NCBI GenBank assembly: GCA_022600975.1
Contig: JAHZJJ010000049.1
Location: 1 to 44,599, forward strand
DNA: 44,599 bases
Origin: Gammaproteobacteria bacterium
Lineage (GTDB): Bacteria > Pseudomonadota > Gammaproteobacteria > Pseudomonadales > Cellvibrionaceae
Direction: 5' to 3'
In this document: piece by piece, positions 3,227 to 43,002 of the stretch
How positions within the stretch are numbered: position 1 is the stretch's first letter
Layout: every line of letters starts with the position of its first letter
Made by a program: the position numbers and the translations under genes
The notes under the pieces: generated by a model
Databases searched by the model: none
The model's input: only the letters and a program-made list of their open reading frames with translations
What the model was told of the DNA's origin: nothing

Positions 3227-3352
3227 CTTAGAAATGGCAATTGGGCGCGCAAAAGCTGTGTAAGTTATTGGTGTGCATGGCGAGCTTTTTAAAATTTCTC
3301 AAGTAGATCAAGAACCTGTGCAGACTTCAGTGATCCAGTTGCGGTTTCCAGG
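3227..3352 (-). repeat. dispersed repeat, copy A (126 bp, reverse orientation)
   Basis: This is the same length as copy E and matches its reverse complement along the whole length, for example GCGCGCAAAAGCTGTGTAAG here against the complement of CTTACAGAGTTTTTGCGCGC there. Ends are CTTAGAA and TTTCCAGG. The flanking pentamers GTAAG (3222-3226) and GTAAT (3353-3357) agree at 4 of 5 bases, consistent with a worn target duplication. It lies in the gene-poor stretch beside the IS3 remnant. Confidence 0.85.
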
Positions 3353-8797: not shown

Positions 8798-9060
8798 AAT
8801 TCACTCATTTGGCAGCCAAGCGTGGCGTCTATTCAACGCTTTTAACTTTGAAATTTCAAGTGGATATTGCTGCGATAAAGCTGTTTTTAACCACAGTGTG
8901 CGGTACAGTGGAAAAAATTAGATAAAACACCATGCACCAAGAAAAATCAACAAGCTTGGTTTATAAAAGGAAACCTTAGCCTGGTGCGCTTCAATTTACG
9001 TCCCTTTTTGACCGATCGCAGCACAGATGGAACTGTTATCAACAAAGTGAGTGTTTAGAT

Positions 9061-9136
<76 letters not shown>

Positions 9137-9138
9137 AA

Positions 9139-9214
9139 TGGCATCCCCAAGGGGAGTCGAACCCCTGTTACCGCCGTGAAAGGGCGGTGTCCTAGGCCTC
9201 TAGACGATGGGGAC
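9139..9214 (-). tRNA. tRNA-Glu (TTC), copy 1
   Basis: A 76-nt cloverleaf on the minus strand: acceptor stem GTCCCCA, anticodon arm CCGCC-CTTTCAC-GGCGG with anticodon TTC, T-arm GGGGTTCGACTCCCC and encoded CCA. The discriminator base is G, as in E. coli tRNA-Glu. It precedes tRNA-Gly copy 1 by two bases. Confidence 0.97.
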
Positions 9215-9344
9215 TAAAACTTGCTCCGGCTTGCAACCGAATAAGTCTCCAACCAAGAGGCTGAAGGATACTTAACAACGGCACACTATTTTTAATTTTG
9301 GATTGCTACTGCTTTAATTTAGCTATTTTAACAAAAATTAAAAC

Positions 9345-9420
<76 letters not shown>

Positions 9421-9422
9421 AA

Positions 9423-9498
9423 TGGTATCCCCAAGGGGAGTCGAACCCCTGTTACCGCCGTGAAAGGGCGGTGTCCTAGGCCTCTAGACGATGGGGAC
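9423..9498 (-). tRNA. tRNA-Glu (TTC), copy 2, with A at the discriminator
   Basis: The same sequence as the tRNA-Glu at 9139-9214 except for the base before CCA: the plus strand reads TGGT here and TGGC in copy 1, so the discriminator is A instead of G. The anticodon is TTC. It is the first gene of the order Glu-Gly-Glu-Gly on the minus strand. Confidence 0.96.
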
Positions 9499-9660
9499 CC
9501 AGAATTCCTCCTCAGTCAGTTAAAAATCTCAACCATGCGTGAAGAAGTGGGCGCATTCTATGTAGGGTCCAGGAGACTGTCAACACCTGCAGGGCTACTT
9601 TTCCAGTATTTTTTTCCTTTTGCAGACAGGTACTTACCAGAATCTAGTGAGACTTCACTG

Positions 9661-12352: not shown

Positions 12353-12517
12353 CCTAAAAATCGCAGTTGAATCATGCAAATATGTACAAGTTTTTGAGGT
12401 GCCTAATAAATTTTAAAAAGCTCTCATCATCATTAATAAGATGTCAAGAATTTTTAAAATTCGCCATATACGCCAATAATTCACACAGTTTTTGCGCGCC
12501 CAACTGTGGTTTCTAGG
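12353..12517 (+). repeat. dispersed repeat, copy B (165 bp, expanded middle)
   Basis: The ends match copy E: CCTAAAAATCGCAGTTGAATC on the left and CGCGCCCAACTGTGGTTTC on the right. The middle is about 39 bp longer and AT-rich. Flanking pentamers are TTAAG (12348-12352) and TTAAC (12518-12522), 4 of 5 alike. It lies in the 452-bp interval between divergent genes, about 70 bp from the VIT start, and could influence either promoter. Confidence 0.82.
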
Positions 12518-14645: not shown

Positions 14646-15551
14646 CTATTGCAAAAATTGTTTTTTGGTTTTCATTAAAGCGCTGTCTCCCCAGGTAGCA
14701 TTCCCCCAAGTGATGACGCTGCCATCAGACTTTAGGGCTGCAAAAGCACGATTTGTTGAAAAGATGGTGGTCACACCTCCAGCTAGACGATGCGCTACGG
14801 TGCTACTGTTACTGCCAAAATTAGTATCGCCCCAAGTCACCACACTTCCATCAGATTTTAGCGCTGCAAAGGCATCATGTGTTGAAAAAATAAGATCCAC
14901 ATCACTGATTAATTGCTCTTTTACACCATTGCTACCGCCACCTCTGGCTTTATCTCCCCAAGTGACGACACTGCCATCCGTTTTTAGTGCAGCAAAGGCC
15001 CCGGCCGTTGAAAAAATGGCCTCCACGTCGCCAGTTAACTGGTCAGCAACGGCACTGCTATCTCCGCCTGAGAAAGCATGTCCCCAGGTGATGACGCTGC
15101 CATCAGATTTCAATGCCGCAAAGGCAAATTCTGTCGAAAAAATGGTGGTCACGCCGTTGGTCAATCGATCAGCAACGGCACTGCTATCCCCTCCAGCTAT
15201 AATGTGTCCCCAAGTGACGACGCTGCCATCGGTTTTCAAGGCTGCAAAAGCATCTCCAGTTGAAAAGATAGTAGCAACACCATGGGTTAACTGGTCTGTT
15301 ACGGCACTGCTATCACCCCCGGCATCGGCATCGCCCCAGGTCACCACACTGCCATCAGCTTTTAGAGCTGCAAAGGCATCGAGGGTTGAAAAGATTGTTT
15401 TCACTTCACTCAACATGAAATGACCGGGCACGATAGTATGGGTTTTTATACTGTCGCGTTCATTGGTGTTCGAGTCACTAGAGCCGCCACAGGCATATAA
15501 TGTTGAAAGAAAAATAAAAACCAGCCACGTTGAAGTGTTGTATTTAGCCAT
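14646..15551 (-). CDS. lipoprotein with six RCC1-like tandem repeats
   Basis: A 301-residue predicted lipoprotein. The signal TWLVFIFLSTLYAC ends in a lipobox with lipidated C21. Then come six consecutive repeats of about 42 residues, each of the form IFST..AFAALK.DGSVVTWG....GGDSSAVADQL. This resembles RCC1/BNR-type propeller repeats (SDGSVVTWG), which usually form a circular beta-propeller. The function is unknown; surface binding is a guess. The ATG at 15551, after GGGGGCG, is preferred over a TTG at 15569. The sixth repeat is degenerate (GDSALMKTKKQFLQ). Confidence 0.85.
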   Translation of the reverse strand: MAKYNTSTWLVFIFLSTLYACGGSSDSNTNERDSIKTHTIVPGHFMLSEVKTIFSTLDAFAALKADGSVVTWGDADAGGDSSAVTDQLTHGVATIFSTGDAFAALKTDGSVVTWGHIIAGGDSSAVADRLTNGVTTIFSTEFAFAALKSDGSVITWGHAFSGGDSSAVADQLTGDVEAIFSTAGAFAALKTDGSVVTWGDKARGGGSNGVKEQLISDVDLIFSTHDAFAALKSDGSVVTWGDTNFGSNSSTVAHRLAGGVTTIFSTNRAFAALKSDGSVITWGNATWGDSALMKTKKQFLQ

Positions 15552-22126: not shown

Positions 22127-22168
22127 CCGATTGATGCCTCAATAGTGCGCTATATTGGCTTTGTTCAA

Positions 22169-22400
22169 CCTAGGAGCCTGTCGGGCTTAACACTGGCCTA
22201 CTGCGAAAAAGCCGGATTTGGCCATTTTTTATGCTGATTCTCGTTAAATAGAACCACTATTCGCCTCGGATCATCATAAAAAATGGCTCAAACCGGTCTT
22301 TTTCTCGCTACGATCGGTTGAGTCCGACAGGCTCCTAGAAGCCACAGTTGGGCGTGCAAGAACTTGTGCAGACTTGTGTGATTCAACTGCGGTTTCTAGA
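22169..22400 (-). repeat. dispersed repeat, copy C (67 bp, split by a MITE)
   Basis: Joining 22169-22172 to 22338-22400 gives a 67-bp element beginning CCTAGAAGCCACAGTTGGGC and ending CAACTGCGGTTTCTAGA, the same family as copies A and E with about 59 internal bases missing. It is flanked by a perfect direct repeat TTCAA (22164-22168 and 22401-22405). The right TTCAA contains the stop codon of the alkyltransferase-like gene, so insertion occurred exactly at that gene's end and the duplication preserved its stop. Confidence 0.82.
22173..22335. mobile_element. 163-bp MITE-like palindromic element with TA target duplication
   Basis: The ends GGAGCCTGTCGG (22173 on) and CCGACAGGCTCC (to 22335) are perfect inverted repeats, and a second inner pair, CCATTTTTTATG with CATAAAAAATGG, makes most of the element one imperfect palindrome. 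TA lies on both sides (22171-22172 and 22336-22337), and removing the element with one TA restores the CCTAGAAGCC end of repeat copy C. TA duplication is typical of IS630/Tc1-mariner mobilisation. It carries no coding capacity. Confidence 0.82.
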
Positions 22401-22401
22401 T

Positions 22402-22737
22402 TCAAGGTTGCCAGAGATATTTTTTCAAATCCACCCTGCCGTTTAAGAGTGTAATCCCCTCGCGTTCCAGGCGGGTGATCTGTCGCTGTGCAGCGGGTTG
22501 TGGCAAGGATATGCGGCCCTGGGCATTGATTACGCGGTGCCAGGGTAAGTTGGTGTTTTTTGGCAGCTTGCGCAGCGTTTGCCCCACCAGCCGCGCCGCT
22601 CCAGGTGTTCCGGCGAGAGTAGCTAAACCTCCGTAAGTAACGACATACCCTGAGGGTACCTGTGCCAGTGCCAGCCAGATGCGATTTGTGGCATCATGCT
22701 GTGTCGATTCGGATGATTTGTCTGAATAAGTATCCAA
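22402..22737 (-). CDS. MGMT-family alkyltransferase-like protein
   Basis: A 111-residue homologue of the C-terminal domain of O6-alkylguanine-DNA alkyltransferase. It recognises O6-alkylguanine without repairing it and hands damage to nucleotide excision repair in characterised relatives. The reactive cysteine motif PCHR is PWHRV here (LPWHRVINAQGRI), the hallmark of alkyltransferase-like proteins. The DNA-binding helix YVVTYGGLATLAGTPGAARL is intact. The only upstream start is a TTG at 22737, with GGAG before it. The stop codon lies inside a 5-bp target duplication of the adjoining repeat. Divergent from the DUF481 gene. Confidence 0.9.
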   Translation of the reverse strand: MDTYSDKSSESTQHDATNRIWLALAQVPSGYVVTYGGLATLAGTPGAARLVGQTLRKLPKNTNLPWHRVINAQGRISLPQPAAQRQITRLEREGITLLNGRVDLKKYLWQP

Positions 22738-26925: not shown

Positions 26926-28593
<1,668 letters not shown>

Positions 28594-28660
28594 GACGGCT
28601 GCTCCAAGTTGGTATTCGCGCCGTAAACGCTGGATACCGACTGGCTTTATGCTAAATCTG

Positions 28661-28692
28661 ATGCCGGGTTGCAACTGTAACCCGGCATTTTT
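28661..28692 (+). terminator. groESL intrinsic terminator
   Basis: ATGCCGGGTT (28661-28670) is exactly complementary to AACCCGGCAT (28679-28688), with an 8-nt loop and a following T run to 28692. It is 67 bases after the groEL stop. Confidence 0.9.
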
Positions 28693-28714
28693 ATGCCTGC
28701 TAGTATAAGGCGGC

Positions 28715-28787
28715 CACGAATTTTTAAAATTCGCCATGCACACCAATGACTTACACAACTTTTGCGCGCTCAACTGCGGTTTCTAGG
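28715..28787 (+). repeat. dispersed repeat, copy D (right half only)
   Basis: From about 28715 (GAATTTTTAAAATTCGCC) to TTTCTAGG at 28787 it matches the right half of copies B and E. No left end is present. The abrupt start just past the groESL terminator suggests a truncation. Confidence 0.8.
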
Positions 28788-42560: not shown

Positions 42561-42633
42561 ATATAGTTGCGAGAGGGGGCCGGGTCGCTACTTCTCTGAT
42601 GTAAATTGTGATGAATATTAGAGCCGCTTTAAA

Positions 42634-42759
42634 CCTAGAAGCCGCAGTTGAATCACGCAAGTCTACACAAGTTCTTGATGTACTTGGCAACTTTTAAAAA
42701 ATTCGCCATGCACACCAATAACTTACAGAGTTTTTGCGCGCCCAACTGTGGCTTCTAGG
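42634..42759 (+). repeat. dispersed repeat, copy E (126 bp, reference copy)
   Basis: Begins CCTAGAAGCCGCAGTTG (42634-42650) and ends CAACTGTGGCTTCTAGG (42743-42759); the ends are inverted repeats matching at 16 of 17 bases. The middle contains CTTTTAAAAAATTCGCCATG and GTTTTTGCGCGCCC. Flanks TTAAA and CTGAA agree only partly, so a target duplication is not clear here. The remaining 42760-43002 is AT-rich with a run of T at 42877 and no gene. Confidence 0.88.
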
Positions 42760-43002
42760 CTGAAATAATAAAGGGTAAGTTTAGCCATACTAAGCGTTAA
42801 GTAGTGCGTTAGCATTAGCTGGCTAAATTTGTTGCATATTTTGCCAACGGTTAACGCTAGCGGAAAAAATATCGTTGTTTTTTTTTTGAGCCTAACTTAT
42901 CGCTGTTAAAGCTATTCTGCGGAAAGCATTGATAGCGGTGTTAAATAGTATGGTTTTCATTTTTCTCGTTCTCAAATTTAGTGTTTTTAAGTCTGGTTTA
43001 TT

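Follow-up and report, generated by a model that had tools for sequence, protein, structure and literature searches.

A 163-bp MITE, likely moved by IS1380-type transposases, with a predicted RNA hairpin shared across distant bacteria

Five related intergenic repeats with inverted ends lie in the window, by which we mean the whole 44,599-nucleotide stretch of DNA analysed here, and they raise the question of what kind of sequence this is. A preliminary description had offered two alternatives, a non-autonomous transposable element or a conserved core that could fold as RNA, and our results support both together. We think it probable, with considerable room for doubt, that the repeat is a 163-bp MITE likely moved in trans by an IS1380 transposase, one strand of which is predicted to form an RNA hairpin of 71 bp that compensatory changes have preserved in distant bacteria.

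Copies of the element and their target duplications

The host is a Microbulbifer relative: the identity of its topoisomerase IV subunit A to named Microbulbifer proteins is about 78-81%. Its assembly comprises 2.81 Mb in 179 contigs and is 81% complete. When the window sequence was checked, all five copies described earlier, A to E, were found where they had been placed (Table 1), and all lie between the larger ORFs of the window, as the word intergenic had implied. The reported proportions held as well: A and E are equal in length, B is 39 bp longer than E, C is 59 bp shorter than E and split, and D is a half copy. Copy D overlaps an opposite-strand 191-aa ORF (28198-28773) lying for the most part antisense to a gene for a 549-aa chaperonin; we take this ORF to be spurious. 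What did not hold was 126 bp as the length of the unit, since the complete element is 163 bp and the 126-bp version is an internal-deletion form; A and E show 81% complementarity over 135 nt, and both are missing 37 bp from the middle, the apical hairpin included.

Table 1. Copies of the element and associated features (window positions unless a locus is named)
Feature	Position	Strand	Description
Copy A	3227-3352	+ (predicted RNA, better-folding strand)	126-bp internal-deletion form
Copy B	12353-12517	- (predicted RNA strand)	Full-length form, 165 bp; 109.6 bits in covariance-model search
Copy C	22169-22400	+	67-bp short form, interrupted by a nested second element
Copy C flanks	22164-22168; 22401-22405		Exact TTCAA direct repeats
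Nested second element	22174-22334		Unrelated 161-bp inverted-repeat element with ends GAGCCTGTCGG...CCGACAGGCTC
Nested element flanks	22170-22173; 22335-22338		CTAG on each side
Copy D	28715-28787	- (predicted RNA strand by alignment)	Right half only
Copy E	42634-42759	- (predicted RNA strand)	126-bp form without apical hairpin; 104.2 bits on the minus strand
Copy E flanks	42629-42633; 42760-42764		Left TTAAA, right CTGAA; target duplication decayed, 3/5
Single IS1380 of the own genome	L199 1498-2841		447-aa intact-looking transposase ORF; ends CCTGAATCCGTAGC/CCTGAATCCGTAGCTTCAA, unlike the element's

Across the loci examined there were 174 core matches, many of which duplicate one another or are broken by contig ends, and these resolved into 58 distinct elements with both ends located, from the own genome and others. 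The great majority (52) measure 161-166 bp. Three more, of 185-187 bp, contain an additional insert, and shorter derivatives were found at 67-68 bp (copy C, L047, L051, L056) and, once, at 43 bp (L014). The left and right halves are mutual inverted repeats along the whole element, with terminal inverted repeats of the CCTAGAAACCGCAGTTG type on both sides. An insert of 22-28 bp close to CTCGCCTAAGAGCGCCTACTGTTGGTGC occurs within the arms, in either one (L032, L036, L042, L092, L098, L157).

When the own genome was searched with copy E, 60 stretches matched, and copy A was found at 2.1e-30. A covariance-model search of the same genome gave 91 matches, which merge across strands into at least 59 distinct places, a lower bound because 150 of 855 candidates were scored; 33 of these places are 155-166 bp long and 9 are 115-135 bp. 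Copy D is absent from the list of that search. The earlier suggestion that the genome may carry hundreds was thus not borne out by the number of places located in these 2.81 Mb.

Insertion has left a clear trace at the junctions. Of the 58 elements, 39 lie between exact 5-bp direct repeats, as compared with a mean of 4.4 and a maximum of 13 when partners were shuffled in 10,000 trials, and there is no peak besides 5 bp, repeats of 3, 4, 6, 7, 8 and 9 bp being present at 0, 1, 1, 0, 0 and 0 elements. The target site is mostly WTNAW. In the window, the duplications of copies A and B have each decayed to 4/5. Being short, multi-copy and dispersed, with inverted ends and target duplications and no transposase gene, the element is a MITE.

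Three observations concern other repeats. A second nested case, of about 98 bp with GAGCCTGTCGG ends and CTAG on both sides, lies inside a copy in L026 (near 1307-1571). Five tandem copies with 126-bp spacing at window positions 14704-15410 fall inside an ORF and probably encode a 42-residue protein repeat, so that the agreement with the short-form length of the MITE looks like coincidence. At 9054-9511 there is a 174-bp direct duplication, 95% identical, with two tRNA genes per copy.

Distribution and the link to IS1380

To follow the element outside its host we scanned with a 24-base core pattern of 23 fixed bases. The scan returned at least 117 stretches, most of them, among the matches listed, from one Thiotrichales MAG, and the number is not a measure of abundance. 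The labels among these matches, mostly of metagenome bins, include Thiotrichales, Ectothiorhodospiraceae, Aestuariirhabdus, Spongiibacteraceae, Microbulbifer, Paraglaciecola, Ghiorsea (Zetaproteobacteria), Desulfuromonadales, Deltaproteobacteria and others; a Hydrogenedentota match, 24 bases at a contig end, may come from a misbinned contig. Elements of 161-166 bp are likewise present in other Gammaproteobacteria, in Zetaproteobacteria (Ghiorsea) and in MAGs labelled Desulfuromonadales. One of the carriers, Microbulbifer rhizosphaerae CECT 8799 (L166), is in culture. In a survey of the class, 7 of 369 gammaproteobacterial genomes matched with at most one mismatch, and in a survey of the order 9 of 390 genomes matched, the own genome included in each, and reversed-pattern controls listed 0 in both. 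One class-survey genome, the Thiotrichales MAG judging by its contigs, accounts for 142 core-pattern matches. A search of relatives with copy E found the element in 6 of 96, and plasmid and phage collections and viral contigs gave no match. In Thiotrichales bin10046 (loci within L078-L193) many contigs begin or end at or near the hairpin centre, and the repeat therefore probably breaks the assembly.

The preliminary description had suggested looking for an autonomous IS with the same ends. One exists in Ghiorsea, where we found 17 flank-distinct ISs of 1669-1672 bp, 8 of them with exact 5-bp repeats, whose transposase belongs to IS1380 by NCBIfam NF033539 (1.5e-93). The right end of this IS, CCTAAATCCTGCAAGTG, matches the CCTAGATCCTGCAAGTG of the element at 16 of 17 positions, and the left end is alike over 14; the ends of Ghiorsea elements are CCTAGATCCTGCAAGTG and, in some, CCTAGACCC. 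The non-autonomous transposable element proposed earlier is therefore supported by its inverted ends, 5-bp target duplications and lack of a transposase gene, and by a same-ended IS1380-family IS in one carrier. PMC12116815 gives the left repeat of ISEc9/ISEcp1 as ACGTAGAATCTAGG (reverse complement CCTAGATTCTACGT) and states that the IS1380 family generates 4-5 bp repeats, and 5-bp duplications for ISEcp1/ISEc9 also appear in PMC2887853. Common to these ISs and the element are ends starting CCTA(G/A)A and the 5-bp duplication; the element differs in that it has no transposase gene and is near-palindromic over its whole length.

No autonomous IS with gamma-type ends was recognised among solo ends in the gammaproteobacterial carriers. 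A search of 19 carrier genomes at E 1e-6 found no IS1380 transposase in 14, among them the Thiotrichales MAG richest in copies, and in the four non-Ghiorsea carriers with an IS1380 match a motif scan detected no ends of the element's kind around it. Solo end matches without the core (L294, L296, L298, L301, L302, L321) adjoin ORFs and were considered as an autonomous partner, a candidacy we rejected when Pfam identified 7 of 8 neighbouring ORFs as ordinary genes; the eighth (L301) has only weak helix-turn-helix matches, below the Pfam cut-off. Multi-copy ISs may be missing from incomplete bins. We infer that IS1380-type transposases would move the element in these carriers too, likely acting in trans on a body that encodes no transposase.

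Another MITE body with the same ends, about 235 bp long and with an apical TCACC-N5-GGTGA hairpin, occurs in UBA3067 (L309 1284-1518), and similar starts were seen in L313, L317 and L032.

The predicted hairpin and its strand asymmetry

For the fold we aligned 34 elements, in both orientations, which were hand-picked for diversity from 56, L036 and L116 having been left out of the 58 as mis-bounded. Since 21 of the 34 came from loci retrieved by the exact core pattern, conservation of the core is inflated in this alignment. The common predicted structure is a single 71-bp hairpin with the loop UUAUU on the reverse-complement strand, and 91.9% of its 2411 cells are paired. Double (compensatory) changes were found at 41 of the 71 pairs, in 235 cells, and none of 500 shuffles reached any of five measures. 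Pairing fell to 37-48% when the partner was slid by 1-3 columns, a comparison in which the structure is favoured, as it was derived from the same 34 sequences. When the set was reduced to one sequence per lineage (12) and the 18-bp ends were excluded, 24 of 53 pairs still show a double change, as opposed to 0 of 1000 shuffles. The conserved core had been said to be capable of folding, and here core and arms covary together as a hairpin. An element from Paraglaciecola that is 62% identical to the own element also folds over its length, with a z of -5.8 on the weaker strand.

No Rfam family reached its gathering score, and the window gives only six tRNAs. The hits of copy E in a relaxed scan, none of which reached gathering score, were mainly to models of eukaryotic microRNA precursors, and we put them down to generic hairpin similarity. 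A coding role, suggested by an open frame seen by eye in one consensus, was dropped because the own and Ghiorsea copies carry early stops.

The opposite strand, given its own 64-pair structure, also beats the controls (85.6% paired, 37 pairs with a double change). The reverse-complement strand folds better in all 34 elements, with a mean of -84.4 vs -56.8 kcal/mol; in the window the same comparison gives -40.0 on the plus strand vs -20.6 on the other for copy A, -44.6 vs -41.5 kcal/mol for copy B and -64.3 vs -50.0 for copy E. Where the arms differ inside the ends, the mismatch reads as G.U 306 times vs A.C 26 times on one strand, and an energy-free self-alignment gave 327 vs 72, with G.U in excess in every one of the 34. 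In each lineage 6-15 G.U pairs persist vs 0-3 A.C. Changes between 14 lineage consensuses gave G.U 28 vs A.C 7, or 2.5e-4 one-sided against 1:1 if changes are independent, a value that is optimistic because the 14 lineages include close kin. The unpaired columns of the predicted RNA strand are also G+T rich (0.57 vs 0.58), and G-rich as well, so a composition bias of the strand may contribute.

As a control, in six ERIC copies of the 25 listed, one strand folds better by 11-17 kcal/mol, with 16 G.U vs 8 A.C. The nested second element gave G.U vs A.C counts of 2 vs 7 in copy C and 4 vs 0 in L026, and three other bodies with the same ends gave 10 vs 5, 12 vs 5 (in a body with roughly set bounds) and 4 vs 6.

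Where selection acts and what the fold may do

Among 31 copies in the own genome, per-site divergence from the consensus is about 10%, and paired and unpaired sites are equal. Private changes in these copies comprise 15 G.U, 15 A.C and 43 transversions that break pairing, while shared changes are G.U 107 vs A.C 72. In other carriers, private changes were G.U 11 to A.C 9 in Thiotrichales (18 copies), 9 to 2 in UBA3067 (7) and 1 to 3 in Ghiorsea (7); the centre is less variable than the rest in all three, partly as a selection effect of the core pattern. Gene context, for which the counts are rough as ORF calls were length-based, places 80 of 98 full elements outside called ORFs and 18 overlapping one. 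There is no preferred direction relative to flanking genes (17 same, 14 opposite) among the 61 elements classed by them; 19 have no gene in reach on one side. With no gene-direction bias, and with single-copy mutations in the own genome ignoring pairing (15 to 15), the target of selection seems to be the lineage that spreads and not the copies once inserted. Copies inserted in the own genome seem to decay freely while source lineages keep the fold, which likely serves the element's own spread.

The core also appears on different IS1380-like ends, judging from identities between single elements. Core identity exceeds end identity between own and Ghiorsea elements (0.77 vs 0.52) and between Ghiorsea and Paraglaciecola (63% vs 37%), a comparison somewhat inflated at the centre; for the own and a Deltaproteobacteria-labelled element the values are 84% for the core and 87% for the ends.

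The best reading of these results is a putative RNA role in the element's propagation. One strand would fold as RNA (we infer RNA rather than single-stranded DNA) into the 71-bp hairpin, and spread may depend on the fold, which might for instance protect, regulate or recruit the transposition machinery, given that own-genome copies decay regardless of pairing and spreading lineages retain it. A stronger version, which we put forward only tentatively, is that this is an IS1380-type MITE unable to spread without its own folded RNA, the hairpin acting in transposition or its control, and that the module passes on different IS1380 ends between classes and phyla.

We consider it rather unlikely that this is an ordinary MITE whose palindrome is a DNA feature only, with symmetric end recognition and arm-to-arm correction keeping the arms alike and with the G.U excess due to a strand composition bias inherited from one ancestor. 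A transposase does require matching ends, the predicted RNA strand is keto-rich in its unpaired columns too, and many G.U pairs are common to several lineages. Yet with one sequence per lineage covariation persists at pairs interior to the 18-bp ends, arm-to-arm correction would remove the G.U pairs that persist in each lineage, and changes between lineages favour G.U over A.C even if some of those lineages are close kin.

It is improbable that the copies are kept by the host as mRNA elements, like ERIC or Correia/NEMIS, with the hairpin setting mRNA processing or stability. Other bacterial MITEs form stable stem-loops in transcripts and either undergo cleavage by RNase III or change RNase E sites, according to PMC2229807 and PMC10969869, and the location mostly outside ORFs would suit such a role, as would the position of classed copies in the own genome, 10 between convergent genes vs 3 between divergent ones. 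Against it stand the lack of a preferred direction and the free loss of pairing in own-genome copies.

We give a similarly low probability to selection for a single-stranded DNA hairpin, formed as the element transposes or is replicated, as in IS200/IS605, REP and integron attC systems. Those systems are strand-specific, as the signal here is, and G.T pairs are tolerated better than A.C in DNA hairpins also. The clean 5-bp target duplications and IS1380-like ends instead point to double-strand cut-and-paste, and we know of no such duplications in the single-strand systems. Finally, chance matches or a local repeat without wider significance, for which nothing speaks besides the short length, are refuted by at least 59 places in the genome, zero controls among 369 and 390 genomes, and the target duplications.

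Among known repeats, REP/REPIN with RAYT are strand-specific folded repeats with a helper enzyme; the element is much longer and has 5-bp target duplications, which to our knowledge REP/REPIN and integron attC lack. Tn3 makes 5-bp target duplications as well, and the Tn3-derived TIMEs are likewise non-autonomous; the element's transposase link is to IS1380, and its ends are presumably not Tn3-like. ERIC (127 bp, enterobacteria) is also a short intergenic palindromic mobile repeat, close in size to the element, with tens to hundreds of copies and a long RNA stem. The element differs from it in its 5-bp duplication, IS1380-like ends, range beyond Gammaproteobacteria and abundance of G.U, which is sparse in the six ERIC copies. 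Copy E had no match when the plasmid collection was searched by distant blastn, while 268 records there match an ERIC query. Correia/NEMIS of Neisseria is a MITE with transcript stem-loops (PMC2229807), and for our element the fold is predicted; we set the two apart by host and by the element's lack of an Rfam match.

Five pieces of the element's sequence (14-16 bases) had no occurrence in the literature searched, and the element is not described in the titles and opening abstract lines of work on IS1380 and MITEs, MITE covariation, or Microbulbifer MITEs and intergenic repeats. Within the scope of these searches the family is new, as are its spread and its strand-specific covariation. The kind is already known, since two reviews describe stable stem-loops in transcripts of bacterial MITEs (PMC2229807) and, for Correia and ERIC, RNase effects (PMC10969869).

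A frequent view of bacterial MITEs is that they are passive remnants of ISs. Here the same 163-bp body occurs from Gammaproteobacteria to Zetaproteobacteria and MAGs labelled Desulfuromonadales, its ends varying and its fold staying constant, and it provides a search model (163 positions, 71 pairs) for a repeat outside every Rfam family. Should spread require the fold, an RNA would be a partner in DNA transposition carried out by a DDE transposase.
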